A stretch of DNA of 64,000 nucleotides, taken from Bacteroidota bacterium. GTDB lineage: Bacteria > Bacteroidota > Bacteroidia > Bacteroidales > FEN-979. Positions within the stretch are counted from its first letter, which is position 1; every line of letters starts with the position of its first letter. The translations under genes were made by a program, and so were the position numbers. This document shows positions 10,601-57,863 of the stretch, one piece after another. The notes beneath the pieces were generated by a model, which was not told the DNA's origin, made no database searches, and was given only the letters and a program-made list of their open reading frames with translations. The stretch is from assembly GCA_026391835.1 (NCBI GenBank), contig JAPLDF010000046.1, positions 1 through 64,000 on the forward strand, in the 5' to 3' direction.

Positions 10601-11107
10601 TGTGGAGATGGCGCCGCATCATTGCTGCCGGTGGTCGTAAATCCGCGGCCTCCTGATCCTGCGATTGTATTGAATGGGAATACATTGACTTCCAGCGCTG
10701 CTTCCGGGAATCAGTGGTATGACCAGAACGGGGTGATCACCGGGGCAACAAACCAGTCGTACATAGCCGCAACCAATGGCGATTATTATGTGATTGTCAC
10801 GGATAATGGCTGTAGTTCCGGCCCGTCCAATGTGATACACGTGGTAATCGAAGGATTCGGAAGCACGGCATTGCATGAAGCGGTAAAAGTCTATCCCAAT
10901 CCGGTGTCGGACGAATTGATCATTGAAATCCCCGGTAACACCCGGCCCGCGACTTTTGAAATACTGAATTCAATTGGCAGGATCGTCTTCACCGGTGTCT
11001 TGCTCGAAATGACAACCGTGAATACATCGTCCGTTGCTGCGGGAATTTACCTGGTTAAACTTCAGGTTGATAACACTATCGAATTCAGGAAAATTCTCAA
11101 AGAATAA
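7658..11107 (+). CDS. Secreted RCC1-repeat propeller protein with Ig-like domains and T9SS type A sorting domain
   Basis: 1149 residues. A signal peptide (IPTILLLLLTLTTLQSFPQ) is followed by about 14 RCC1-like repeats of roughly 50 residues (LWxWGxNxxGQLGDGT ... W ... GLKSDGT, about residues 50-730). Fourteen would suit two seven-bladed propellers. Then come an Ig-like segment and two PKD-like domains (ATSYIWTLPSG and ATSYVWTLPAG, about 800-960), another Ig-like stretch, and a C-terminal T9SS type A sorting domain beginning VYPNPVSDELIIEIPG (about 1075-1149). RCC1 folds mostly bind proteins; no catalytic motif is visible. It lies 26 bp after porP/sprF on the same strand and may be co-transcribed. 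The product is probably surface-attached or released; its ligand is unknown. Confidence 0.88.
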   Translation: MKIPTILLLLLTLTTLQSFPQINRQNTRMTIAYRSNYQRISAGHSHALELRGGKLWVWGGNAYGELGDGTTVNKISPVQIGNDSNWVIVAAGNCFTLGLKSDGTLWAWGRNNYGQLGDGTIVNNSSPLQIGTGNNWISITAGNECSFGLKSDGTLWSWGRNNYGQLGNGSIIDKLVPVQVGSDFKWISIAAGENHTLGLKANGTLWSWGRNNAGQLGDGTLADKTSPVQTGTDNKWVSLVAGDNHSLGLKSDGTVWAWGANAGGQLGDGTNADKNIPVQAGTDNKWVSISAGTSYSLGLKSTGTLWSWGLNDRGQLGDGTNVNKNSPVQVGTDNKWAGMETGMNYTFGLKTKGTLWGWGDNSSGQLGDNTTIDKIIPSRTSVTLDLWLGLAGGGGHCMGVKTNGTLWGWGANYPGQLGNGSNANVNTPVQVTVDSSWVGVSTGEGYTFGLKSDGSLWSWGYNSYGGLGNGTNVNANCPVHIGADVNWVSAGGGIQHSIGLKADGTLWSWGFNNYGQLGIGTTVNSYTPVQIGTDNKWKSIAVMVYSSYGMKSDGTLWAWGHNFSGQLGDGTTVDKSTPVQIGTDNTWVKIIASNSTVLAIKSNGTLWAWGMNGTGEFGNGTTTGSKFPIQIGTENTWLTLGAGTSSSHTLAVKSNGTLWAWGYNADGQLGDGTTVNRKSPVQIGNETGWTGVTGGDYYSAGMKAGRTTFCATGANPYGQLGNGTFIGSKVFLCSTNPPPPAPVNSTPPSGATICSGTSTALTATGTGTLGWYSALTGGTYLGGGDTYITPVLSDSVTYYVQDSIVCACGGITILRTPVHVAVHPLPANAGIITGIQAVCQGPDALIYSVAAIEHATSYIWTLPSGATGASTTDSITVTFGLSAVSGYITVSGHDSCGNGMSSLLEVTVSRVPGNACTITGSPVVCQLQNAVTYAVPEIAGATSYVWTLPAGAAGTSSTNSISVDFGASALSGDISVMGVNTCGDGAASLLPVVVNPRPPDPAIVLNGNTLTSSAASGNQWYDQNGVITGATNQSYIAATNGDYYVIVTDNGCSSGPSNVIHVVIEGFGSTALHEAVKVYPNPVSDELIIEIPGNTRPATFEILNSIGRIVFTGVLLEMTTVNTSSVAAGIYLVKLQVDNTIEFRKILKE

Positions 11108-11116
11108 GCCTGCATA

Positions 11117-11199
11117 ACTTTGTGACTTTGTGACTCTGTGACTTTGTGACCCTGTGACTTTGTGACTCTGTAACCCTGTGACTCTGTGACCTTGTGACC
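11117..11199 (+). repeat. 9-bp tandem array (GTGACTTTG words) directly after the RCC1 gene
   Basis: Nine imperfect copies of a 9-bp word of the type TTTGTGACT begin about 10 bp after the RCC1 stop codon. The same word in the same orientation relative to its upstream gene recurs after the DUF2231 gene (28513-28618). No open frame here is credible. Confidence 0.9.
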
Positions 11200-11281
11200 T
11201 CCCCGCTTTTCTCCCTCTAAAAAAGTTATTAACAATCCCGCACCTTTCTCCTTCATTCCCGATTAAGCTGAAAAACGGGCT

Positions 11282-11845
11282 ATGAAAACAACATTGCTTG
11301 AACCGGGGAAATACTACCACGTATACAACCGGGCAAAAAACGGCGATCCGCTGTTCGAAAGCGAAGAGGCCTATCGCTTCTTCCTCAAACTCTACCAGGC
11401 GCATATCTGTCCCATCGCGGAAACCTATGCCTATTGCCTGCTGAGCGACCACCTCCATTTCCTGATCCGCATCCGCGACGATGCCGGGGGAAGCCTCTAC
11501 AAACCCTTTGCGTTGCTCTTCAACGGCTACGCAAAAGGTTATAACCGGCACAATGAAAAAGAGGGTAAGGTCTTTAAATTCAAACTCAAAAGGAAGGAGA
11601 TCCGGTCAACGCCAAGCTTCCTGGAAATGATCCGGTACGTTAACCAGAACCCCTGGCGGCATGGTGCCACCGAGCACCCGGCAAACTACCGGTACTCCTC
11701 CTTCAGGGCGACGATGTCCGCCTCACCGACCATGGTGGCGAAAGAGCAGGTCCGGGAGCATTTTGGCTCACATGAAAACCTGGCAGCCAACCTCCTTACA
11801 CTGGTCGATGAAACCGCCATCCGGTCGTTGCTGCTTGAAGAGTAA
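11282..11845 (+). CDS. REP-associated tyrosine transposase (RAYT, IS200/Y1 family)
   Basis: 187 residues of the Y1/HUH transposase fold. The N-terminal strand KYYHVYNRAKNG, the HUH motif in LSDHLHFLIRI (His57 and His59), and a tyrosine helix FNGYAKGYNRHN (Tyr83 or Tyr87 as nucleophile) are all present, followed by the family's YVNQNPWRHG and YRYSSFRA blocks. HUH enzymes nick single-stranded DNA through a 5'-phosphotyrosine link. RAYTs are single-copy, domesticated relatives linked to dispersal of REP palindromes. No IS-type terminal repeats are seen beside it, but several REP-like palindromes occur elsewhere in the window (13310-13378, 14267-14287, 21695-21716). It looks intact. The name RAYT rather than an active IS200 is inferred from length and context. 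Confidence 0.85.
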   Translation: MKTTLLEPGKYYHVYNRAKNGDPLFESEEAYRFFLKLYQAHICPIAETYAYCLLSDHLHFLIRIRDDAGGSLYKPFALLFNGYAKGYNRHNEKEGKVFKFKLKRKEIRSTPSFLEMIRYVNQNPWRHGATEHPANYRYSSFRATMSASPTMVAKEQVREHFGSHENLAANLLTLVDETAIRSLLLEE

Positions 11846-11925
11846 CCTGAAAAAAATCAGTTTTGAAAAGTTAAATTAATTCGTTTTGTTCCGTGGTTGA
11901 TTAAGTGGTGTTTTCTGGTGGTTGA

Positions 11926-11961
11926 GGGGAGGGGACGTGGTTTATCCCCTTCCCCTTTTTT
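11926..11961 (+). terminator. Probable intrinsic terminator after the RAYT gene
   Basis: GGGGAGGGGA (11926-11935) pairs with TCCCCTTCCCC (11945-11955) with a single-base bulge and is followed by a run of six T. It lies about 80 bp after the transposase stop and before the next gene. A weak -7-like TACCTTTA follows at 11965-11972 and could start the downstream transcript. Confidence 0.6.
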
Positions 11962-11989
11962 CCCTACCTTTATTGAAATTTTCCAACGC

Positions 11990-13276
11990 ATGCAAAAAAT
12001 CGGTTTCCTGGCGGTCGTATTGTTTCTTTTACAGTCATTCTTGGGGAGCCGGGCAATTTCACAGGAAGTTGCGGCACTGTCAGGCACTGTATTTGACTCC
12101 GCTACCGGGATTGCCCTTCCTTTTGCCCAGATATCCGTTCAAAACAGCACCATTGGTACCGTTACCAATGAAGAGGGCCAATTCAAACTGGATGTTCCGG
12201 CGAGATTTGCAAAAGATACCCTGCTGGCAACCTATATGGGCTATGAAACACTGAAGCTTCCTGTTTCGGGGATTGCAGGGAATCCCACCCGGCTGGCATT
12301 AAAACAACATGCGCTGCAACTCGCCGAGGTTGAAATTCTTGCCCTTTCGGCGGAAGAGGTGATCCGGCGGGTGGTGGCAAACATTCCCGACAATTATGGC
12401 AGGGACTCCCTGATCCTCACCGCATTTGTCCGCTCACAAAAATTTGCCGGCGGCAAACTGGCCGAATATACAGAGGCCATCATCGAGGACCTGAAAACAG
12501 GGTACAATCTGTACAAGCGCAAGGATGAGAAGGAGAGGAGCCGTCAGTCCAACATCCCATTGTTGCTGAAGGGACGCGTCATCTCCGACACCAGCCTCGT
12601 GAATTCCATCGGCGACCTTGGAAAAAGTGCGGGCTGCCTTGGTTGCAATTTTATCCATGATTTCGTGGAATTCTACTACCAGACCGTACTGGATGAGAAA
12701 CTGTTCCGGTTTTATAATTTCAAGATTGAAGAGTTGCTCAAACCCGAAGGGGGAAAGATCTACCATATCCGGTTCGACCAGAAAAAAGGGGTGAAAGAGA
12801 CCTTGTGGAAAGGAGAGATGTTCATCAACGGGGGTGACTTTGCCCTGCTGAAGATCACCCAGAAACCAAGTTTTGAAGCATATGACCAGTTTGAAAAGCA
12901 GAAGTACAGGAAACCCTATACGATCCTGAACAGCACCGGCTGGTACCAGGAAATGCCGCTGATGGAGTGGACCACAACCTATTCCGCCAGGAACGGCAAA
13001 TATTACCTCAATACCATCCAGGTCCAGAACTGGCTGACATTCATCAACCCTGCAACAAGGAGAAAATTAAAATTTGCCCACCGGAATGAAGTCGTTGTCA
13101 CCGGGGCCACGCGCGACCCGGAAAAAATCAAAAACTTCAAAGGGGATAAATCGATCGGCGTCAACCAGCGCTGGGACCAGGTGGTCGGATCATCGGATGA
13201 CCTGTTCTGGGAAAAATTCAATTACCTGCCCATCGAGGAGAAGCTGAAAAAAGAGCTGGTTCAGATCGGCAGGTAA
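11990..13276 (+). CDS. Exported carboxypeptidase-regulatory-like domain protein, function unknown
   Basis: 428 residues from the ATG at 11990. That start is chosen because it places a signal peptide (FLAVVLFLLQSFLGSRAISQ) at the N-terminus; the longer open frame upstream crosses a terminator. A CarboxypepD_reg-like beta-sandwich follows (LSGTVFDSATGIALPFAQI through TLLATYMGYETLKLPV, about residues 25-100). After it comes an alpha/beta region with AEEVIRRVVANIPDNYG that is shared by many uncharacterised Bacteroidota envelope proteins. It lacks the TonB-receptor barrel and lacks a T9SS tail, so it is probably periplasmic or outer-membrane associated. Its 3' end faces the phosphatase gene. No specific function can be given. 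Confidence 0.75.
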   Translation: MQKIGFLAVVLFLLQSFLGSRAISQEVAALSGTVFDSATGIALPFAQISVQNSTIGTVTNEEGQFKLDVPARFAKDTLLATYMGYETLKLPVSGIAGNPTRLALKQHALQLAEVEILALSAEEVIRRVVANIPDNYGRDSLILTAFVRSQKFAGGKLAEYTEAIIEDLKTGYNLYKRKDEKERSRQSNIPLLLKGRVISDTSLVNSIGDLGKSAGCLGCNFIHDFVEFYYQTVLDEKLFRFYNFKIEELLKPEGGKIYHIRFDQKKGVKETLWKGEMFINGGDFALLKITQKPSFEAYDQFEKQKYRKPYTILNSTGWYQEMPLMEWTTTYSARNGKYYLNTIQVQNWLTFINPATRRKLKFAHRNEVVVTGATRDPEKIKNFKGDKSIGVNQRWDQVVGSSDDLFWEKFNYLPIEEKLKKELVQIGR

Positions 13277-13309
13277 AATTTTCCGGAAGAAAACCGTTTT
13301 ATGCAATAA

Positions 13310-13378
13310 TTCCGCACCTACGGCGCGGAAAATCAACATGAAACCCAACGGGCTACCATAATAAAGCTCCTCCGGAGC
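13310..13378. repeat. REP-like element with two small palindromes
   Basis: TTCCGC (13310-13315) pairs with GCGGAA (13325-13330), and GCTCC (13366-13370) pairs with GGAGC (13374-13378). Both lie in the convergent gap between the exported regulatory-domain protein and the phosphatase. The composite looks like a dispersed intergenic element rather than a gene part. Copy number elsewhere cannot be seen from here. Confidence 0.5.
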
Positions 13379-13410
13379 AAAACAACCGGCAATCTTCAGC
13401 CCTCATTGTC

Positions 13411-13531
13411 TATGTTGCCTGCATTGCCTGCATTGCCTGCATTGCCTGCATTGCCTTCATTGCCTTCATTGTTTGCATTGCCTTCATTGTTTGCATTGCC
13501 TGCATTGCCTTCATTGTTTGCATTGCCTGCA
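13411..13531. repeat. 9-bp tandem array (CATTGCCTG words)
   Basis: About 13 imperfect copies of a 9-bp unit CATTGCCTG, with CATTGCCTT and CATTGTTTG variants. It ends 4 bp from the stop codon of the minus-strand phosphatase gene. The Ala-Leu-Pro-rich open frames it creates are not genes. The rest of the 259-bp convergent gap holds the palindromes at 13310-13378. Confidence 0.9.
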
Positions 13532-46646: not shown

Positions 46647-48350
46647 TTATTGAGCCGGCTCACAGGTATAGCTGAGTTTCCATCCTTTGCCCACTGAATG
46701 ACCATCTGTTAAAAACCAGACCAGGATTTTATTGGAGAGTGAGGTTATCACGGGAGGCTGGGTGATGCCCGAAAATTTTGCCAGGAGATTTTCAGGCAGC
46801 GTGGAGGTCCCGTCAAAAATCCACACAAAATCCACGTTGGGCTGGGTATCAATGTCGGAAAATTCCAGCCTGATGCGCTTATCCGCAGGAACGGATATCT
46901 GCCACTTGCAGGAACTGTTGTTTGCATAGTTCCCGTCGCCACTTCCGTCCTCAATGGATCCATTATCCGCGGAAACATATTGGATATCATGACAATAAAG
47001 TGATGTGGAGTCAATGGTTTCCATATAATAGCTCAATCCCAGGTCCTTCGGAAGGCCGGTTTTGGGTTGCAGTTCAACCTTGAACCTGCTTCCCGGGATG
47101 AACATCCATTTTGAGAGGCCACCCAGCGTCCCGTTGTACCAGAGTGAATCACCGGTGTAAATTTTGACAATTTTCCTGTTGTCGGGGCAAACCGAGGATA
47201 TATGGACCCCCTTGTAGGCCCCATACGGCCGGATGTTCCATGTTTGAAGGCGCTCCTTTTTTCTGAAAAATATTTTCCCTTTGGAGCGTGATGACGCAAA
47301 GCCCGAAAATTTGTAATCCGGATCTGAGATATACGCGATTGCCTTTGACATGTCGGGCAACCCTGCACCAAGTTTCCCGCACCAGCTCAGGTTCAGGCTG
47401 TCAACCGGTGTGGCGGTGTTTGTGAGGGCGTCAAAAATGTCCGACGCGGAAGCTTTCGGGTTGATGGCTTTTAACATTGCGGCACATCCTGTTATAATTG
47501 CAGTGGCGGGCGAGGTTCCATTTTCATGAATGAATGCATTGTCTGCCAGCGGATGCGGACCGTACACCGAATCGCCCGGTGCTGCAATGTCGATCCTCAT
47601 GCCATAGTTTGAGTACCTGCTTTTTTTCAGGGTACTGTCAAGTGCCGCCACACAGAACACACCGGCGTAAGAGGCAGGAGGATCAACCTTTTCCGCATAT
47701 AAATTCCCTGCCGAACCGATGATCATGATTCCTTTGCGGATGGCACCATCCAGGATGGATTTTTCCTCCTCCGAAATTTTGCCTCCGCTCCACGCGCAGC
47801 AGATGATGTCGGCCCCGAGGTCACTGGCATATTTGATCCCTTTGTATCCATCCTGGAGATAGAGGTTGTTCGCATGGTCGGATAGCACTTTTACCGGGAT
47901 GATCTGCAAAACCTTGCCTGCATCCCCGCCAAAACACGACTGAAATAAGTTTGCTATGATCCCTGCCACATAGGTGCCATGGTAAAACATGTTCTCCCTC
48001 CCTTTCGGAACAGAGACGTCGGGATCATTGTCCGAAATATCCCATCCATGTAAGTCATCCTGGTAGCCGTTGTTGTCATCATCCTGGAAATTTCCGGGAG
48101 ATTCCAGCCTGTTTGTATAGATAAAATCCTTCAGCGACAGGTGCGAAAGCCTGAATCCGTCGTCAATCACCGCAACCTTTACCACAGCACCGGCTGCGGC
48201 CTTTTGCCGGACCATGTTCAGTATAGCGTAAACCCGGGTATCGGGAATCCCCTTTTTTACAGTATCATCCTGTAATTGAGAAACAAGTCCTGCGTGACCT
48301 CTGGGCAGAAATGCAAAAAAGATCAGTGCGAACAGGCAGAAGTACTTCAT
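46647..48350 (-). CDS. Exported subtilisin-like serine protease (S8) with C-terminal CUB-like domain
   Basis: 567 residues. A signal peptide (FCLFALIFFAFLPRGHAG) precedes a subtilase domain with the triad Asp63 (AVIDDGF), His124 (YHGTYVAG) and Ser280 (ENGTSPATA), plus the oxyanion Asn216 in GSAGN. Two departures from consensus are the HGTY form where HGTH is usual, and SPA for SMA after the serine. A CUB-like domain from about 455 (CHDIQYVS to WKLSYTCE) holds paired cysteines. There is no T9SS tail, so it may stay periplasmic or be exported another way. It lies 34 bp downstream of the collar-domain gene on the same strand, and could process the neighbouring surface proteins. Confidence 0.88.
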   Translation of the reverse strand: MKYFCLFALIFFAFLPRGHAGLVSQLQDDTVKKGIPDTRVYAILNMVRQKAAAGAVVKVAVIDDGFRLSHLSLKDFIYTNRLESPGNFQDDDNNGYQDDLHGWDISDNDPDVSVPKGRENMFYHGTYVAGIIANLFQSCFGGDAGKVLQIIPVKVLSDHANNLYLQDGYKGIKYASDLGADIICCAWSGGKISEEEKSILDGAIRKGIMIIGSAGNLYAEKVDPPASYAGVFCVAALDSTLKKSRYSNYGMRIDIAAPGDSVYGPHPLADNAFIHENGTSPATAIITGCAAMLKAINPKASASDIFDALTNTATPVDSLNLSWCGKLGAGLPDMSKAIAYISDPDYKFSGFASSRSKGKIFFRKKERLQTWNIRPYGAYKGVHISSVCPDNRKIVKIYTGDSLWYNGTLGGLSKWMFIPGSRFKVELQPKTGLPKDLGLSYYMETIDSTSLYCHDIQYVSADNGSIEDGSGDGNYANNSSCKWQISVPADKRIRLEFSDIDTQPNVDFVWIFDGTSTLPENLLAKFSGITQPPVITSLSNKILVWFLTDGHSVGKGWKLSYTCEPAQ

Positions 48351-49173: not shown

Positions 49174-51702
49174 TTACTGTCTGATGATTTTACGGGTTTC
49201 GGCCATGTTTCCCGAGATCACCCGGATAAAATAGATTCCTGCCGGCTTTGCTGACAAAGAAAACACATGCTTCATTTCGTCTTTCAGTGTTGCTGAAATG
49301 ATCTTTTCACCCTGCATTCCGAAAATTTCAATATTCGACTGCCCGGAAGTACCTGCCTGGCCCAATACCAGGGTAAAATCTCCGGAAGTGGGGTTTGGGT
49401 AAACCTTGAACAGGGGCTGCGCCACTTCCTTGAAGGTCTCTTCCGTTCCTGCTGCCACCGGGGCAAAAGGAGGAAAAACGCAATAGGGGCCGCCCGGTGC
49501 AATGTAACCATGCATATAACCTCCGGCGTAAACTTTCGTGCCCGGCAGGTAAAGAATATTCTGCCCGGCGATCATGGTTGCGTACCCCCCGTTCTGAACC
49601 GTAAAAGTGTTGCCCGCCCCGGCTATGGTGATGGTACTGGTGGCACTGTAACACTTTGTTTGTCCGCCCGGGATGTCCGCCACAACGGCGAGGTTGACAG
49701 GAACAGTGCTCACCGTCATGACCAGCGGGCCGGAAGTGACCGGGTTGGTGGTTATACACGCTGCGTTTGAAGTCAGTACACATGTAACGGCATCATTGTT
49801 TAACGGTACATATGAATAGGTCTGATTGGTTGCTCCTGTGATGGCTATTCCATTCACTTTCCACTGGAAAAGTGGTCCAGGCCCGCCATTTTTTGGTGTT
49901 GCAGTAAATGTGACAGGGTTTCCTGAATAAACAGGGTTGACAGATGCAGCAACAGTAACACCCACAGGGAGATTCGGATTAACCCCCGAAATGTAACCGC
50001 TGAGGTCGACCAATGGATTAGGAATCCCTTCATTCAGGGTTACCGCGTTCAATTGCAGAAATGGCTGCGATCCAAGGATGAAAGCCGGCTTGAGCAGGAA
50101 TCTCATCTTTATAATGATTCCGGCCGTATTGAAGGCAGTTGCCCCTGAACCTGCAAAAATCACCTGCCCGGTGGTCGGGTTGGTCACAAAAGTCCATCCC
50201 TGGGTTTGTGTTCCTGTTGTCTCCAGTGCCTGGAAGGCGAGATAGGCCGAATTGTAGGTAACAGTTGCCTGGACTGAACTTACCGATTCCCCCGACGGCA
50301 ATGCAGTTATAAAGATGGGATAATAAAACTCACCGGCTGCTGGACAGGTATTCGTATCCGGCATGATCACCTGGGTATCGTAAACCAGCCAGTTTGCGGT
50401 AGTCGCAGAAGCCCCGTGAACATCTGTAGCAGTAACGGTAACATTTCCGCCTTTGAAAGTTGTCATCAGGCCGGTTTGACTGATGGTGGCAACCAGCGGG
50501 TTGCTGGTGCTCCAAACAATTGGCGGTGCGCCGCCACCATTCAGGGTGAACTGTTTGGTCTGCCCCGCAACCATCGTTCCACTGTTGGGTGTTATCGACA
50601 GAACCGGCAGGTTGATGGTTGAAAAATACCCGTCTGTATAATTCGGAATAAAGCTTTCGTTGAATAGTCCATTGCTGAATGTGATGGATGAAGCACCTGT
50701 ATTCAATGAAGAAACGTGAAATCTCACATATAGTAGGATCCCGCTTCCCGATAACGGTGTCGCTCCGGCAAAGTCGAGTGCAAGAGTTCCCGGGTTATTT
50801 ATGTTAACCAACGGTGCCGGGTAAGAAGCCAGCAGGGTTCCTGCCTGGATAACCCCGACAGGCGTTAGGATGTTTTGATTGAAACCAAGACTGAAACTAC
50901 CCGAATAGATGTTTAAACCGCTGAGATCAGTTGTGTTCACCGGCACATCAATATCCAGTCCCTGCCACTGGCTTAGCGTGGTTGAAATGGAAAGCCGCAT
51001 GGCCCGCACTTCAACCTGGGCATTTGTCGTATCCCGCAAACCGTTATTGTCCACCGCAACCACTTTTGTAAAACCCGCCAGGGTCCCGGTAAGCAGTCCT
51101 GAAGCACTGATGGCGGCCACCGACGGATTTGTCACAAACCATTGATAGGGCGCTGCCCCGCCCGAAACACTGAATTGCTGTGTTTCTCCTTTGGTTATGA
51201 GCCCTGAATTCGGTGACACGGAAATTGATGGAGGTGCTGAGATATTCATGTACCCATTGTGAAAACTCATGGCAGGGAGCCCCTCATTGAAGTAGTTATT
51301 CTGTGCTCCGGTAAAAATTATATAGAGACCTCCTGGTTGGAGGGCTTTAAAACGGATATAGATAAATTTCCCCGAACCGGAAAGCGGATTGGTACCTGCG
51401 CCTGCAATGGTGATCTGCCCTGGCACGGATGTGTTCACTGCCGGACTGCCGTAAGGTGCACTGATCGTCCCGGCCGTAATCACCGACACGACCTGGAAAT
51501 AAGTCTGGCTGAAGGATAATTGCAATACATATGAGAGTACATTCTTGCCTGTCAGGGTGTTGTCGGCATATATGGGTATATCGATGTTATTCCCTGCCAC
51601 CACGGTACTATCCGGAACCCTCATGCCGATGACCTGTGCCTGCAAAACAGGACAAGCCAGCATAATCAGCAAAAGAAGGGCAATGGTTGTAAATCTTTTC
51701 AT
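49174..51702 (-). CDS. Secreted three-cohesin protein with Ig-like linkers and T9SS type A sorting domain
   Basis: 842 residues with a signal peptide (ALLLLIMLACPVLQAQ). Three cohesin-like domains are seen at about 25-150 (VVAGNNIDIPIYADN ... YVLQLSF ... KFIYIRFKA), about 228-360 (LDIDVPVNTTDLSGLNIYSG ... LLYVRFHV) and about 445-585 (YPIFITALPSGESVSSVQATV ... IIKMRFLL). Big2-like Ig domains (SVSPNSGLITKGETQQFSV and SITPNSGTMVAGQTKQFTL) separate them. The C-terminus VYPNPTSGDFTLVLGQ to AETRKIIRQ is a T9SS type A signal. Cohesins bind dockerins; the adjacent upstream gene encodes a dockerin-like module. No catalytic domain is present. It is a possible scaffoldin-like surface protein; binding is inferred, not shown. 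Confidence 0.85.
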   Translation of the reverse strand: MKRFTTIALLLLIMLACPVLQAQVIGMRVPDSTVVAGNNIDIPIYADNTLTGKNVLSYVLQLSFSQTYFQVVSVITAGTISAPYGSPAVNTSVPGQITIAGAGTNPLSGSGKFIYIRFKALQPGGLYIIFTGAQNNYFNEGLPAMSFHNGYMNISAPPSISVSPNSGLITKGETQQFSVSGGAAPYQWFVTNPSVAAISASGLLTGTLAGFTKVVAVDNNGLRDTTNAQVEVRAMRLSISTTLSQWQGLDIDVPVNTTDLSGLNIYSGSFSLGFNQNILTPVGVIQAGTLLASYPAPLVNINNPGTLALDFAGATPLSGSGILLYVRFHVSSLNTGASSITFSNGLFNESFIPNYTDGYFSTINLPVLSITPNSGTMVAGQTKQFTLNGGGAPPIVWSTSNPLVATISQTGLMTTFKGGNVTVTATDVHGASATTANWLVYDTQVIMPDTNTCPAAGEFYYPIFITALPSGESVSSVQATVTYNSAYLAFQALETTGTQTQGWTFVTNPTTGQVIFAGSGATAFNTAGIIIKMRFLLKPAFILGSQPFLQLNAVTLNEGIPNPLVDLSGYISGVNPNLPVGVTVAASVNPVYSGNPVTFTATPKNGGPGPLFQWKVNGIAITGATNQTYSYVPLNNDAVTCVLTSNAACITTNPVTSGPLVMTVSTVPVNLAVVADIPGGQTKCYSATSTITIAGAGNTFTVQNGGYATMIAGQNILYLPGTKVYAGGYMHGYIAPGGPYCVFPPFAPVAAGTEETFKEVAQPLFKVYPNPTSGDFTLVLGQAGTSGQSNIEIFGMQGEKIISATLKDEMKHVFSLSAKPAGIYFIRVISGNMAETRKIIRQ

Positions 51703-51764
51703 TGTTTTTTCTGTAAAAATGAATAATACTCACTTTGATTTGGTTCGGGTTAAATCAGGTAGAT

Positions 51765-51830
51765 TTTCCCCGCAGATTTTAACAGATTCAATGATGTATT
51801 ATCTTTTAATCTGCGAAAACCTGCGGGAAA
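51765..51830. repeat. Imperfect hairpin built from CGCAGATT words
   Basis: The left arm (about 51765-51788) and right arm (51808-51830) are reverse complements at about 21 of 24 positions, with the word GCAGATT at both ends. It lies 16 bp downstream of the stop codon of the beta-helix gene (minus strand), before the cohesin gene. Confidence 0.75.
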
Positions 51831-51845
51831 TATCCGCGAGAAAAA

Positions 51846-54800
51846 TCATCGTATTATCTGAAGTGTCTGTGTCTGTGAATAGCCATTCACCGTCATCCTG
51901 ATGAAATAAGAGCCGGCATCAAGAATAGTGCCATGATCTGAAATAGATACAGTATATTTTCCTGTGCCCATGGTTGCATTCACCAGTGTTAAAACCTTTT
52001 GTCCCAACATGTTGAATACTTCTATGGTTACAGGGAGGTTGTCTCCACTCAGCTGGTAGTTCAGCGTTGCATTGCCTGATGACGGGTTCGGATAAACTGG
52101 CAAAAGTTTACCCTGCATCATGCCTGAGTTTGCTGCAATTCCGGTGGTGTTGTCGGTAATGGTCACACTTCCGGGAATAACACCCGCTGTCTGATCCATT
52201 TCATTGGCAAGGAAGCTGTCGGCAGTCAGCATCGTTGTGACCTGGTTTCCGCCGGGGACCATTGCATGGAAAGAGACATCTGCCAGCGTGGTATCGGTGG
52301 TCAACGCATTAGTCCCTGCAAGAGCAATCGACAGGATACCGTTCACACTGTCGTTGTGAAAGACCAGGTTCATATCGGTGAGCGTCGATGTGACCTGCCT
52401 TAGCTGCAGGTATGCCGGGTCATAATGAAGTTTTATGTCGGCAGAAACCATTCCCGAATCATTGATTACCTGCAGGGGAATATTGAAATCCGCACCGTTC
52501 ACTACATTGGCGCTGCCAATGACCAGTTGCTGGCCGGTAAGGGAAGAGAAAACAGGTTTTGCAAGTTCTGCCGGGAAATATTTGATCAGCCCGACCACAT
52601 ATTGCAGGATCAGTGAGGCATCGTAGGCGGTTATGCCTGCTGCAAAACTGACATCTGCAACCTGTTGCTGGGTGGCGTTCAGGGTGATGCTCCCAACCAC
52701 ATGCTGCAAGACCAGTGAGGCATCGAACGCCTGAACAACTCCGTTTAGACTCACATCGCCCATCATTGGGTTCGAGGCGCCGGTTAACAGGTATGGCGTA
52801 TAATTTACCGCCGTTGTGACCAGTTCCTGGATGCTGGTTCCATTCCCCTGGGTGTTCGTTTGGATTGGTCCAAGGTTGCTCCCCCACCAGCAGTTCGTTG
52901 CATCGATGACAAAGGATTTGTTCACATTGTTGATTGACCAGTAATAATTGTTGTCGAAATCGCAGTTGTGAAACACCGGGTTTGAAGCGGCAGCAGCGTA
53001 AACACCATAATAATTATTTGCAATGGTGCTGTATGTAACCAGCGGACTAGCACTGGTAATATTCAACCCGGAGTTGCTGTATTTGAGAATGCAGTGTCTT
53101 AAACGGCAGAGCGGATCAAGGGCCTGGTCGTTGAACCCGATGTAGTTCCAGTTAGCCAGGGCAGGGGTTGTCAGGGTAGAGTCGGAATTGGAATCACCTC
53201 CATAAAAATCATCCTTGATGCTGGTGAATACAATATTGCTGTCGGCACGGAATCCACCTTCCGCAATCAACCCTTTATTGACCGTGAGGCTGCCTCCGCC
53301 GTTGAATTTGCAAACAACACCCGGGTTGATCGTCAAAGTGGCCCCGGTGCCTACAACATATGATCCGAAAAGGTATGAAATGTTGGGAACACCGCCAAAC
53401 GATTGTTTTGCGAGGCTTACGTCCTGCGTGAGCGTTTCATCCCTCACTTTGATGACTTTGTATGTTGAGCCGGTAATGGTATTGTTCAAAATTGAAGCGG
53501 GGAAGGAAACAAGTGATAATTGTATCGGGTAATACTGGAGGTCCTGGAACTGGCTGTTGTCAAGTTTAGGCTGTGATACGCCATTCAGGTCAACACCGTA
53601 ATTCAGGGACCGGAAGATAACACGGTCGATGGTAGGCGAAGCGCTTGTCATGGCAATTCCCGCGTTCCCATATTTCAGGTTCGTGTACTGGATGATGCTT
53701 GAATCATTGGAAACATCATTGAAGGTAATCCAGGTTCCGCCCCAGCCGCCGGTTGGAGGCGCCGTGGCCGATCCATCCTGGTTCATGTCGGGAGGATTTC
53801 CGACAAGGTCATCACGGTAATCGGTAAACCTGACCCTGTTTGAAGAGATTCCCATTACATTTAACCTTCCGTTTACAGTAAACCCGTTTGCCCCGTTAGA
53901 TTTAAAAGCAATTCCTGCAGGTATTGTGATCGTGGTTCCGGAATTAATAACACAGGTTCCTTCCATGTAGTAGGTGATGTTGGTATAGCCGCCAAAATCC
54001 CTCATCGGGACAACCGCACTTTGTGAATATGTTTCAGGACGAACAGTCAAAGCCATCCTGCCCACATTGAGGGAAGTACAGTTCGTAAAGGTCGGGTTCG
54101 AGAACATGCTTAACCTTATCGGAGAGTTCTGAATGTTGTTAAACTGGCAGTTCCTGATATCTGGATTTGACGAGCCAAAGACATCGATGCCGCAGTCCGA
54201 CACCTGCTGAATAACGCAGTTGTCTACAATGGCGTGTGCATTGCTGAAAAAGACGCCCATATAGGGATACGATATTTCACAATTGACAAGGCTGTCATTG
54301 GCATGATTGGAATAATTGATCCCGCCTGTGGAATAACCCCAGTCGCCGCGGCTTGGCACGGAGGCATTCCCGTCATTGTTAGAATCGCCGCCCTTTGAAT
54401 CGTCGGCATAGGAGGTGAAATAGATTTTGTTCCCCGGAAGTCCTTTGGCTATAAGGTGCCCAAGCACACTGATGTTTGCATACCATACATTGAATTTTAT
54501 AACAACACCAGGCTGAATCGTCAGTTTGGCATTGGTCGAAATGGTCAGGTTCGTAATGATATAGGCAATGTTGGTAATCCCGGCAACATTACGGGTGGCA
54601 AGTGTGGCATCGGATGAAAGTGTTCCTTCGATAATCTTGATTGCTTTGCTTCCGTTGGCCGAAAAAGTGATGTTTGTCAGGGTGGGGTTTGAAAGCAGGG
54701 ACATGGCGATCGGGTCGAGCCTGGAATTCTGGATAACCAGGTTATCCACGAGGGGTGTCGAATTCCCGTTGACATAGATGCCATAATAGTAACTGTCGGT

Positions 54801-57800
54801 GATGGTTGAAAAGTTGATCTGTCCGCCGGCATTCTCAAATGTGATCCCGCCCTCACCGGTACTGCCGCCATATTTAACGGTGGTGTAGTTTATCTTGCAA
54901 TAGGCATCATCACTGGTCGCCCTGAACTTTATATTTCCCCAGTTTCCTGAAGCAGGTGCGGTTGCATTTCCATCGCCGTTTGTATCAAACGGGTTCCCTT
55001 CATTGTCATCCTTCAGGCTGGTGAACACCACCTTCTGTATGGCAACGCCGTCGGTTTTAAACCCGCCGTCAACATAGAGGTTGCAGCTGTTCACTTTGAT
55101 GACAACGCCCGGTTCCACATTGACATTGGTCCCGCTTTTAATGGTCATGTCGGCAAGCAGCACATAGGTAATGTTGGTATACCCTGCCACATCGCGTTTT
55201 TTAATGGTTCCGTTCTGGCACACATATCCGCCCAGCAGTCCTATTGCCCTCCACTTCACATTTGTAAAAGTGTTGCCGATAAAAGTTGGGTCTGAAGAAC
55301 CCGAGATACAGAACGGGGTATAGGTGATGTTGATCATATCGTTGTTGGAGATAACCGGGTTGGAGACCCGGTAGCAGGAAATGCCATAATTTAGATCCTT
55401 GAATTCGCAGTTGGAGATGGTAGGGCTTGCATCGATCATCCCGACGCCTGCATCATTGATATAATCACTGGTGCTGCAGGTCGAAAAATAGTAATTCCAT
55501 ACGGAGGCATATTTGAGCCGGCAATAGTTGAGGATACCGGTGCTCCCGGGGTCGAATACGATCCCGCCCCAGTCGCCGATCGCGGGGGAGGTAATTGTTC
55601 CGTCTTTATTGGTATCGCCAGGGTGTCCATAGTTGTCATCTTTTGACGAGGTGAAGGTGATCAGGCTGTCGGCCGTGGCATTGGCGGTGAGGGTTCCGTC
55701 CACAATGATCCGGTGCGCATAGGAGTATGATTTGATGACGATACCCTTGTTAATCGTCAGTGTTTTGCCGGCCGGAATGATGATCTGATCGAGCATCAGG
55801 TAGGTGATGTTCTGAATAGCGGTAACATTCCGTTTAATGATCACGGCGTTTGCAGTTAAAGTTCCGCCGATAAGCCCGATGGCATCATATGCATTGTCTG
55901 AAAAAGAGAGGATGTTGTTAGGCATGTTGGGATTGGCTTCGAACGACATGGCTATCGGCGTAAACTGGCTCGAACCGATGGTGTTGGATGAAAATACAGG
56001 ATTTGAGGCAAACTGCATGTACACGCCGTAATAGTTGTTCGAAAGGTCACACAAATCGATGGTCGGGCTCGCGTTGAACATTGAGATGCCGCCTGTATTG
56101 CCGCCACCTGCATACCGCACCTTGCACCGGCGCATCAAACAGGTTGCATCATTGCTGGGATCATTAAACCTCACACCATACCAGTTGCTTTGGGCCGGGG
56201 CGGTGGTGGTCCCGTCATTGTTGGTATCGCCTCCCCAGTTATCGTCACGGTAAGAGGTGAAAAAAATGTTTTCGCCGGGGTTGGCATTGGCAACCAGGGC
56301 GCCGTTTACATCAAGTGCATACCCTATCTGGAACTTTAATATGTTGTTGGAACCTACAACCATCCGGGCACCTGTGTTGATCGTCATGCCGTATTGAAAG
56401 AAGTAAGGTATGTTTAAAACGGGCAGGGTAATGGTATCGGACAAACTTGTGAACGCCATATTGACAGCCGTATTCACATTGCCGGTGAAAATATTGGTGC
56501 CATGAACAGTCAGGTCGGCTGAAGCCGCATACCAGATCGGCCATCTGCAGCCGGTAATGGTAACGTTGGTGATGTCGATGCCGGCGTTTGCCGCAAGAAA
56601 AAGACCGTAGTAAGTATTCTGCATGGTGACGCCGGAAAGTGTGGAATGGGCATTTGCGCTTGTCAGTATGGAGCAACCGTTTGCAAGGGCCCATGCACTG
56701 CTGGTGTTCATTGATCCGCCAAGCATATTGAGTGTTCCCAGTGTGCTGATTTGGGCCCCGTGATACAAAAAGTTCAGTAAACTGCAATTTGTCAGCGATG
56801 CCTTGCCGTTGTATACATAGAGTTGCTGCGCGTACTGGACCTGGCAGGCGTTCATGGTAACCCTGCCTGAATCAGCGACAGTACCCGAGCCAACCTGTAT
56901 GTGTCCCCAGTCTCCGGGAACCGGGACTGCATTGGCTGAGGTGAAACTTGAACCTGTGGCATCCAGTCTGCCGTAGATGTAAAGATATTGATTGCCGCCC
57001 ACTTTGAATGTGTTACCTGTCTGGAGGGTAAGCCATGAGCCATGCTGCACGGTCAAAGAACCCGGCAGGTAATAGGGCAGGCTGATGGTGGGTAAGGTCA
57101 TGGTGTCGGTCATATTCGTAAAGGCAAGGTTGACCAGCGAATTGGTGTTCCCGGTAAGGGTGTTGACGCCATGAAGGGTGAGATCGGCAGATGCCTGGTA
57201 ATAGATGGGCCAGTTACAGCTGGTAATGATGGTGTTGGTAAGGTCAAATACCGAATTGAGCCGCATATACAAACCATATTGAAAGTGCTGGATGGTTACG
57301 CCCGAAATGGTGTCCATCGACTTGCTGTACCCCCCGATCCCGTAGCCGGAAGCTGCAGCAGTGACACTGTTGGTGTTGATGCTGCCGCCGGTCATCTTAA
57401 ACCGGCAGTTTGCCTGGACGTCCACACCGTTGTTGTTGAAATTCAACAAATCCGTATTTGTGAGGTTGGCCTTTCCCCTGTATACATTGAAAGAGGACGC
57501 ATAAAGGACCTGGCAGCCGTTCATGATGACCGACCCGACATCGGTAATAAGTGTGCCTCCCGTCTGGATATAGGACCATATCCCGGGGACAGGACTGACG
57601 TTGTTTGATGTGAAGGTGGCACTGGTGGCATTCAGGGTACCATATACCAGCATATACTGGGCATCAGCGAACTTTACTGTTACCCCCGCATCAACGGTTA
57701 GCGTTACACCATTATTAACAGTTATGAATGATGTAACGATGTAAGGACTGCCTGCAAGATTCCAGGTTGTATTGGCTGCAATCACACCTGCCACGTTGGT

Positions 57801-57863
57801 TGCCTTAATAGTTGTCAGGGTACAAATCATGAACAGGACCAGTAGGGTAATTGTTTTTTTCAT
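51846..57863 (-). CDS. Giant secreted beta-helix protein with dockerin-like module, cohesin-like domain and T9SS sorting domain
   Basis: 2005 residues. The signal peptide (ITLLVLFMICTLTTIKA) is followed by about 1650 residues of right-handed parallel beta-helix repeats of the NosD/pectate-lyase type. Six Asp-rich loops recur about every 215 residues (DDNWGGDTNNDGT, DDNYGHPGDTNKDG, DDNEGNPFDTNGDG, DDSKGGDSNNDG, DDLVGNPPDMNQDG, DDFYGGDSNSDS), probably binding calcium. Near 1700-1765 lie two dockerin-type segments: GDVSLNGVVQAFDAS with all loop ligands, and ADVSFAAGITAYDAS lacking the position-5 ligand. A cohesin-like domain (about 1775-1910) and a T9SS type A tail (VYPNPSSGNATLNY to TLQIIR) follow. 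No catalytic residues can be assigned. It is the first of four same-strand exported-protein genes. Confidence 0.85.
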   Translation of the reverse strand: MKKTITLLVLFMICTLTTIKATNVAGVIAANTTWNLAGSPYIVTSFITVNNGVTLTVDAGVTVKFADAQYMLVYGTLNATSATFTSNNVSPVPGIWSYIQTGGTLITDVGSVIMNGCQVLYASSFNVYRGKANLTNTDLLNFNNNGVDVQANCRFKMTGGSINTNSVTAAASGYGIGGYSKSMDTISGVTIQHFQYGLYMRLNSVFDLTNTIITSCNWPIYYQASADLTLHGVNTLTGNTNSLVNLAFTNMTDTMTLPTISLPYYLPGSLTVQHGSWLTLQTGNTFKVGGNQYLYIYGRLDATGSSFTSANAVPVPGDWGHIQVGSGTVADSGRVTMNACQVQYAQQLYVYNGKASLTNCSLLNFLYHGAQISTLGTLNMLGGSMNTSSAWALANGCSILTSANAHSTLSGVTMQNTYYGLFLAANAGIDITNVTITGCRWPIWYAASADLTVHGTNIFTGNVNTAVNMAFTSLSDTITLPVLNIPYFFQYGMTINTGARMVVGSNNILKFQIGYALDVNGALVANANPGENIFFTSYRDDNWGGDTNNDGTTTAPAQSNWYGVRFNDPSNDATCLMRRCKVRYAGGGNTGGISMFNASPTIDLCDLSNNYYGVYMQFASNPVFSSNTIGSSQFTPIAMSFEANPNMPNNILSFSDNAYDAIGLIGGTLTANAVIIKRNVTAIQNITYLMLDQIIIPAGKTLTINKGIVIKSYSYAHRIIVDGTLTANATADSLITFTSSKDDNYGHPGDTNKDGTITSPAIGDWGGIVFDPGSTGILNYCRLKYASVWNYYFSTCSTSDYINDAGVGMIDASPTISNCEFKDLNYGISCYRVSNPVISNNDMINITYTPFCISGSSDPTFIGNTFTNVKWRAIGLLGGYVCQNGTIKKRDVAGYTNITYVLLADMTIKSGTNVNVEPGVVIKVNSCNLYVDGGFKTDGVAIQKVVFTSLKDDNEGNPFDTNGDGNATAPASGNWGNIKFRATSDDAYCKINYTTVKYGGSTGEGGITFENAGGQINFSTITDSYYYGIYVNGNSTPLVDNLVIQNSRLDPIAMSLLSNPTLTNITFSANGSKAIKIIEGTLSSDATLATRNVAGITNIAYIITNLTISTNAKLTIQPGVVIKFNVWYANISVLGHLIAKGLPGNKIYFTSYADDSKGGDSNNDGNASVPSRGDWGYSTGGINYSNHANDSLVNCEISYPYMGVFFSNAHAIVDNCVIQQVSDCGIDVFGSSNPDIRNCQFNNIQNSPIRLSMFSNPTFTNCTSLNVGRMALTVRPETYSQSAVVPMRDFGGYTNITYYMEGTCVINSGTTITIPAGIAFKSNGANGFTVNGRLNVMGISSNRVRFTDYRDDLVGNPPDMNQDGSATAPPTGGWGGTWITFNDVSNDSSIIQYTNLKYGNAGIAMTSASPTIDRVIFRSLNYGVDLNGVSQPKLDNSQFQDLQYYPIQLSLVSFPASILNNTITGSTYKVIKVRDETLTQDVSLAKQSFGGVPNISYLFGSYVVGTGATLTINPGVVCKFNGGGSLTVNKGLIAEGGFRADSNIVFTSIKDDFYGGDSNSDSTLTTPALANWNYIGFNDQALDPLCRLRHCILKYSNSGLNITSASPLVTYSTIANNYYGVYAAAASNPVFHNCDFDNNYYWSINNVNKSFVIDATNCWWGSNLGPIQTNTQGNGTSIQELVTTAVNYTPYLLTGASNPMMGDVSLNGVVQAFDASLVLQHVVGSITLNATQQQVADVSFAAGITAYDASLILQYVVGLIKYFPAELAKPVFSSLTGQQLVIGSANVVNGADFNIPLQVINDSGMVSADIKLHYDPAYLQLRQVTSTLTDMNLVFHNDSVNGILSIALAGTNALTTDTTLADVSFHAMVPGGNQVTTMLTADSFLANEMDQTAGVIPGSVTITDNTTGIAANSGMMQGKLLPVYPNPSSGNATLNYQLSGDNLPVTIEVFNMLGQKVLTLVNATMGTGKYTVSISDHGTILDAGSYFIRMTVNGYSQTQTLQIIR

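Follow-up and report, generated by a model that had tools for sequence, protein, structure and literature searches.

In this work, we analyzed a window of 64,000 nucleotides (positions 1 to 64,000 of contig JAPLDF010000046.1, assembly GCA_026391835.1, Bacteroidota bacterium), in which two adjacent genes on the minus strand, between positions 49174 and 57863, encode a 2005-residue beta-helix protein carrying a dockerin-like domain and, directly downstream, an 842-residue protein with three cohesins, hereafter the scaffold. Both proteins end in a type A sorting tail of the type IX secretion system (T9SS). We propose that the products of the two genes form a cohesin-dockerin assembly displayed through the T9SS, in which tail-bearing proteins would be cross-linked on the cell surface; the binding is inferred, and we regard this reading as evenly balanced between holding and failing. 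That many relatives keep such genes side by side makes it probable that the pair builds a surface assembly. The features of both genes are as follows (ORF, open reading frame).

51846–57863, minus strand: gene of the 2005-residue protein with beta-helix, dockerin, cohesin and T9SS tail, the putative cargo (ORF, Pfam, TIGR04183)
52794–57788, minus strand: beta-helix repeat region, residues about 26–1690 (PF13229; outer limits set by us)
52578–52766, minus strand: dockerin, residues about 1700–1762 (PF00404; genus profile A4, with the window sequence among its seeds; ortholog identity)
52182–52529, minus strand: cohesin of the beta-helix protein (PF00963)
51858–52097, minus strand: T9SS type A sorting tail of the beta-helix protein, residues 1923–2002 (PF18962, TIGR04183)
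49174–51702, minus strand: gene of the 842-residue scaffold with three cohesins (ORF, Pfam)
51331–51621, minus strand: scaffold cohesin 1 (PF00963, 36.5 bits)
50620–51000, minus strand: scaffold cohesin 2, residues 235–361 (PF00963, 35.4 bits at 50665–50988; fold match, Z about 10)
50398–50598, minus strand: Big_2 Ig-like spacer between cohesins 2 and 3, residues 369–435 (PF02368)
49972–50376, minus strand: scaffold cohesin 3, residues 443–577 (third PF00963 stretch by hmmscan; fold match, Z about 10)
49177–49404, minus strand: T9SS type A sorting tail of the scaffold, residues 767–842 (PF18962, TIGR04183)

The gene order recurs across the genus. In the loci fetched from 19 genomes of the genus, 12 genomes gave a total of 18 pairs in which a dockerin ORF stands immediately upstream of, and on the same strand as, an ORF with three or four cohesins by our own profile (three pairs in G000; two each in G001, G002, G003 and G016; one each in G004, G006, G011, G013, G014, G017 and G018). 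A weak case of the genome under study (L018, described below) is left out of this count, and in G001 an additional pair of the window type is interrupted by the contig end. Among the remaining seven genomes, G005 gave neither type of match, G008, G012 and G015 gave no dockerin match, and G007, G009 and G010 are of a peptidase type to which we return below. The pair is also present in L022, from a Bacteroidetes metagenome-assembled genome, and, at identities of 50% and 47%, in G047 from another family of the class. The spacers of 15 pairs (14 of the genus plus L022) measure 7–143 bp, 12 of them 7–30 bp. ORFs in the fetched loci were taken longest first, with a minimum length of 120–200 residues, and dropped when at least 30% of their length overlapped a longer ORF. 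Since the loci of the relatives were mostly picked from dockerin matches, these pair counts are minimum numbers and are silent on lone dockerins.

The initial annotation, made by a model from the letters of the window, had placed dockerin-like segments near residues 1700–1765 of the beta-helix protein, and in the genome search Dockerin_1 (PF00404) indeed matched residues 1702–1756 with 29.5 bits, above its curated cut-off of 22.9 bits. The orthologs of L022, G002 and G003 also scored above the cut-off (25.2, 31.1 and 28.3 bits), and that of G047 slightly below it (22.8 bits). Type I dockerins consist of two F-hand calcium loops with ligands at positions 1, 3, 5 and 12. All four are present in loop 1 of the window dockerin (D-V-S-L-N-G-V-V-Q-A-F-D, with D1, S3, N5 and D12) and are kept in five of five orthologs (window, G002, G003, G016 and L022), in which the [AS]-[YF]-D-A-S-L-[IV]-L segments closing each loop are kept as well. 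Our dockerin profile and the A4 profile both include the window sequence as a seed. Upstream of the dockerin, Beta_helix (PF13229) scored 142.4 bits over seven stretches by hmmscan, and downstream of it PF00963 matched residues 1779–1893 with 31.9 bits by hmmscan and 38.1 bits in the genome search (curated cut-off, 24.1 bits). For the dockerin-cohesin segment, 2xdh was the only solved cohesin listed by sequence (E 0.009).

In the scaffold, the three cohesin-like domains that had been read from the gene correspond to three PF00963 stretches with 71.6 bits altogether, accompanied by two stretches of Big_2 (PF02368). Cohesin 3 was not listed separately in the genome-wide PF00963 search, and the 102 bits that it reached with our own profile come from a profile itself seeded by this cohesin. 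In the AlphaFold model of the scaffold (mean predicted local distance difference test score, pLDDT, 56), cohesins 2 and 3 are predicted to resemble solved cohesins (Z 9.2–10.8; root mean square deviation 2.7–3.8 Å over 106–123 residues), and the list of fold matches includes 2xdh, named there as an Archaeoglobus fulgidus cohesin (Z 9.9). The T9SS tails reported for both proteins were recovered by Por_Secre_tail (PF18962) and by TIGR04183, with 40 bits for the beta-helix protein and 46.4 bits for the scaffold (cut-off 23), while the signal-peptide-like N-termini of both were judged by eye only. SprA (TIGR04189), the only component of the T9SS translocon that was searched, is found in the genome with 2597 bits.

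Cohesins and dockerins also tend to occur in the same genomes. In 119 sampled genomes of the class, cohesin matches (E up to 1e-5) were present in 11, dockerin matches (E up to 1e-3) in 28 and both in 7 (Fisher one-sided p = 0.003, or 0.009 with the own genome excluded). In a second set of 41 genomes, the own one and 40 relatives, 22 had dockerins, 25 cohesins and 17 both among the matches listed (Fisher p = 0.023). These p values are indicative only, as the genomes are related.

A scan of the genome for further dockerins, proposed along with the initial annotation, gave seven dockerin ORFs in all (genus profile), five Pfam dockerin matches and 25 cohesin matches (E ≤ 0.001). Such a number of dockerin ORFs would suit a scaffold that acts as a general receptor, its real clients being dockerin proteins encoded elsewhere in the genome and not the neighbor. 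We consider this quite improbable, given that a separate dockerin gene lies next to each of three multi-cohesin genes and that the window dockerin has loop and flanking helix residues unlike those of the other dockerins of the genome. The three pairs are that of the window and those of contigs C73 and C15, in which dockerin proteins of 1718 and 1990 residues, composed of Kelch, beta-helix, dockerin and T9SS tail, are each encoded directly upstream, on the same strand, of a four-cohesin gene. Identity is 46% between the C73 and C15 scaffolds and, over the alignable parts, 24–38% between these and the window scaffold, so that there are at least two old pair lineages. All contig places of the cohesin matches were fetched for a count of ORFs with at least three cohesins; five were found with our own profile, and four of them have a same-strand dockerin ORF directly upstream. 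The weak case among these four is a four-cohesin ORF (L018 3341–6154) whose upstream neighbor has a dockerin match of 21 bits and no match in the genus profile search that gave the seven ORFs. The fifth (L016 5977–8124) has the dockerin in the same ORF; its 715-residue product shows three cohesin stretches by Pfam and a dockerin whose second loop is canonical, but gave no match to a T9SS tail, and the gene sits in a cluster with further cohesin-bearing genes.

The dockerins of the C73/C15 type have an incomplete first loop. The module that follows them had at first been called a cohesin by eye and used as a seed, which made its cohesin matches circular, and that assignment was dropped. With the two seeds removed, HMMER matched it in 1 of 14 proteins only, with 15 bits, while hhalign aligned the 14 copies to the cohesin profile with a probability of 93% (E 3e-7); on this basis the module can be called cohesin-like only. 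In the four-cohesin scaffold of the C15 pair (L015 803–7408), two SLH stretches and nine RHS stretches were matched, but a T9SS tail was not; a four-cohesin protein similar to it in size is encoded in G016 (L150). Another ORF of the genome (L164 2122–10674) encodes 2850 residues with 28 SprB repeat stretches, a T9SS tail, a dockerin match by the genus profile and a weak cohesin match close to the C-terminus.

Comparison with the orthologs, listed in the order G002/G003/G016/L022, makes the dockerin the best-conserved C-terminal module of the beta-helix protein, with identities of 89/90/70/79% compared with 78/56/52/52% for its own cohesin and 65/64/46/64% for its T9SS tail; synonymous sites are mostly saturated between these orthologs. 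In the scaffold, the cohesins are 58–81% identical and the part after cohesin 3 is 28–62% identical. These values bear on the possibility that the beta-helix protein polymerizes by itself into fibers, the dockerin of one copy docking onto the cohesin of the next, with the scaffold as a separate adhesin or cap. The dockerin-cohesin tandem within one chain, seen in the window protein, in 8 of the 12 dockerin-bearing peptidases described below and in single ORFs of G085, G097 and G141, would fit such fibers. However, they would leave the directly downstream gene with three or four cohesins unexplained, and the dockerin surpasses the own cohesin in conservation, so that we judge self-polymerization as the sole arrangement to be unlikely. 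The initial annotation had noted the own cohesin and the resulting capacity for self-assembly; the cohesin is confirmed by PF00963, and self-assembly may occur but is less favored than docking to the scaffold, because of the lower conservation of this cohesin.

Several observations weigh against a functional cohesin-dockerin plug. First, the whole-protein hmmscan score of Dockerin_1 was 21.9 bits, slightly below the cut-off, and the dockerin of the G016 ortholog gave no Pfam match. In addition, loop 2 (D-V-S-F-A-A-G-I-T-A-Y-D) has Ala at position 5 in five of five orthologs and is one ligand short, and in G016 Asn also replaces Asp at position 1 of this loop. The calcium-loop geometry on which the initial annotation would have had its dockerin judged is complete in loop 1 and deficient in loop 2. 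Since the latter is without a ligand at position 5, the domain is, as far as its residues tell, dockerin-like, with one good and one degenerate loop, and not a canonical two-calcium type I dockerin. An AlphaFold model of residues 1690–1910, the dockerin-cohesin segment, built from a two-row alignment (window and L022), reached a pLDDT of 36, and its fold comparison gave no row at Z 8 or above; this model is uninformative and does not itself speak against the plug. The beta-helix part is 87/84/56/78% identical to its orthologs, close to the values of the dockerin, which rest on 63 residues only. Likewise, the Big_2 spacers of the scaffold (46–84%) are about as conserved as its cohesins, whose conservation is for this reason nothing special. 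Finally, among the matches listed for the 41 genomes, eight had cohesins only and five dockerins only, from which it follows that the two modules are not obligate partners.

The degenerate calcium loop would be expected if dockerin and cohesin were non-binding, calcium-stabilized spacers of a stalk before the T9SS tail, and if the pair were kept by co-expression only. The modules of the dockerin proteins of the pairs do sit just before the tail, and the C73/C15 type, with its incomplete first loop and a cohesin-like module so diverged that HMMER mostly misses it, would be understandable on the same grounds. Mere spacers, however, would hardly be expected to keep the loop-closing segments in five orthologs, nor a dockerin better conserved than the neighboring cohesin and tail, and the recurrence of dockerin-less multi-cohesin proteins beside dockerin proteins is not readily reconciled with them. 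We therefore hold this explanation to be rather unlikely, if worth keeping in mind.

In the surface assembly that we propose, the dockerin of the beta-helix protein would plug into the cohesins of the scaffold, and one scaffold could gather up to three beta-helix proteins. The plug would cross-link proteins that are already anchored, side by side, into clusters or a lattice, and would not bring soluble enzymes onto a scaffold. Such lateral cross-linking is the likelier arrangement because both partners carry their own T9SS tail and would not depend on docking to be attached. The beta-helix protein might use its own cohesin either to enlarge the network or as a stalk. Facing outward would be the long beta-helix, or in the paralogous pairs Kelch and beta-helix, with a role in adhesion or glycan binding; this function is suggested by the fold class and is the weakest step of the proposal.

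The outward part is not always a beta-helix. Among the matches listed, G007, G009 and G010, of the same genus, have 17, 25 and 17 Pfam dockerin matches, respectively; 21 of these 59 were scanned for domains, and the other 38 stand outside the following counts. On 12 of the 21 scanned proteins, the ending with dockerin and T9SS tail is joined to a peptidase domain (C25 in five, S8 in three, C1 in one and M14 in three), and the other nine have propeller, BNR, PKD or sortilin-like domains, or only their ending was recognized. A Pfam cohesin follows the dockerin in 8 of the 12 peptidases, the three S8 proteins and one M14 protein being without it; in one of these eight the dockerin comes from the Pfam search of the relatives and our own profile, and not from the domain scan. 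In G027 (L118), of the same order but another family, two C25 (gingipain-like) peptidases have a C-terminal dockerin and no recognized T9SS tail. This genome has 38 dockerin and six cohesin matches among the matches listed. G131, from yet another family, encodes an S8 peptidase that combines PA, CBM_20, dockerin and T9SS tail; the next gene product, of 342 residues, has a cohesin by our own profile (58 bits) and none by Pfam, and then comes a scaffold with five cohesins by our own profile (two stretches by Pfam), a dockerin and a T9SS tail.

On contig C350 of G009 (L165 4364–12000, L116), three successive genes encode S8 peptidases with dockerin and are followed by an ORF of 832 residues. This ORF has one Pfam cohesin match of 35.7 bits and none by our own profile, and was left out of the pair count; the S8 genes and this ORF are possibly a catalytic counterpart of the pair. 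As for the genome under study, no catalytic Pfam domain above cut-off was found on any of its seven dockerin ORFs, and in particular no glycoside hydrolase domain. The dockerin protein of the C15 pair has a match to NANM epimerase below threshold (33.9 bits, cut-off 45). The non-catalytic character given to the pair by the initial annotation accordingly holds in Pfam terms for both proteins and for the seven ORFs, but it does not extend to the C25, S8, C1 and M14 peptidases of the congeners; enzymatic activity is still possible for the proteins of this genome as well, because beta-helix folds can be enzymes. It is tempting to speculate that Bacteroidota may possess a common surface platform, in which varied outward parts (beta-helix and Kelch, or C25, S8, C1 and M14 peptidases) share an ending of dockerin and T9SS tail, in most cases together with a cohesin or a cohesin-like module, and are served by multi-cohesin scaffolds encoded next to them. 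This would form a lateral lattice of T9SS-anchored proteins whose function, adhesive or proteolytic, is swapped by the outward part; we put this wider proposal forward tentatively, as possible but short of probable.

In L022, the scaffold ortholog (10686–13523) has no T9SS tail at its end but a dockerin with two loops of the DGSDM type (18.7 bits, below the Pfam cut-off), and this dockerin ending may replace the tail as the means of attachment. A 2193-residue protein of L019 has a similar dockerin ending.

The resemblance to the clostridial cellulosome lies in the cohesin fold (Z about 10 to several solved cohesins), the duplicated F-hand dockerin and the multi-cohesin scaffold. In the clostridial cellulosome, the dockerin attaches the enzyme. 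Here, in contrast, the seven dockerin ORFs have no glycoside hydrolase, both partners have their own tails, and no carbohydrate-binding module (CBM) family was listed by Pfam for the window scaffold at E ≤ 1. Archaeoglobus fulgidus reportedly has a non-cellulosomal cohesin/dockerin pair encoded by two adjacent genes, with both modules in one of the proteins. That pair is archaeal and, to our knowledge, comes with no multi-cohesin scaffold, no T9SS tail and no beta-helix. Anaerobic methanotrophic (ANME) archaea are described as having, like the genome under study, many non-cellulosomal dockerin and cohesin proteins, including scaffoldin-like proteins with up to five cohesins and a dockerin, and archaeal cohesin-dockerin pairs are said there to bind (PMC9012536). 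Their clients differ, being ABC substrate-binding and S-layer proteins, and the section concerned makes no mention of T9SS (PMC9012536).

A close likeness is found in Candidatus Stygibacter (Cloacimonadota), for which a T9SS-type C-terminal domain on a tandem-cohesin scaffoldin, and dockerins on secreted proteins including S8 and C25 peptidases, were likewise deduced from sequence alone (PMC8542988). The dockerin proteins named in that report are enzymes plus one glycine-rich protein, and its scaffoldin, of 3,755 residues, carries CBM2/CBM3 (PMC8542988). Unlike in Stygibacter, the arrangement described here consists of a beta-helix dockerin protein with its own T9SS tail and cohesin, followed by a small scaffold, and such pairs recur within a genome. 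For Bacteroidota, the authors of a 2018 study of a rumen Bacteroidetes family report finding neither cohesins nor dockerins, in agreement, as they state, with other genomes of Bacteroidetes (PMC5831590), and a later cockroach-gut paper reports dockerins in some Bacteroidota genomes, with its cohesin match elsewhere (PMC10266427). A literature search over titles and abstract openings, with subscription papers mostly outside it, named no such Bacteroidota gene pair. What is new here is the conserved two-gene pair of Bacteroidota with T9SS tails on both partners, with precedents in Cloacimonadota and ANME archaea. Such pairs are small, ready-made test cases for the function of cohesins and dockerins outside cellulosomes, still an open question, and they suggest how bacteria with a T9SS may assemble proteins on their surface. 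Extracellular proteolysis would be clustered by the same plug, provided that the peptidase versions behave in the same manner.

The two genes of the window are separated by one further feature.

51762–51834, minus strand: inverted repeat between both genes, two 34-nt arms, 79% complementary (RNA fold z = −6.6)

Searched as a dispersed repeat, this hairpin gave a single match in the genome at up to two mismatches, and that candidate role was rejected. Its sequence is not conserved, as G002 and G003 carry unrelated, weaker hairpins at this place (z −2.6 and −2.1), and the spacers between the pair genes of G016, L022 and G047 measure 10, 7 and 23 bp. Setting of the protein ratio has been reported for the cip-cel operon (PMC4423207, PMC10311766), and by analogy the hairpin might have a role in the ratio of both proteins, which remains an idea. 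A search for phage relatives of the beta-helix protein gave zero matches at E 1e-5 (tblastn, 50,697 phage records).

Downstream of the scaffold, also on the minus strand, lie a gene whose secreted product has a phage tail collar domain (PF07484; 48385–49146) and a gene of an S8 peptidase with a CUB domain (46647–48350). Putative counterparts, matching these two in place and order and of similar size, are found in G003 (L111, 2103–2915 and 372–2075), and a putative counterpart of the collar-like gene, recognized by position and size, stands at the same place twice in G001 (L113).

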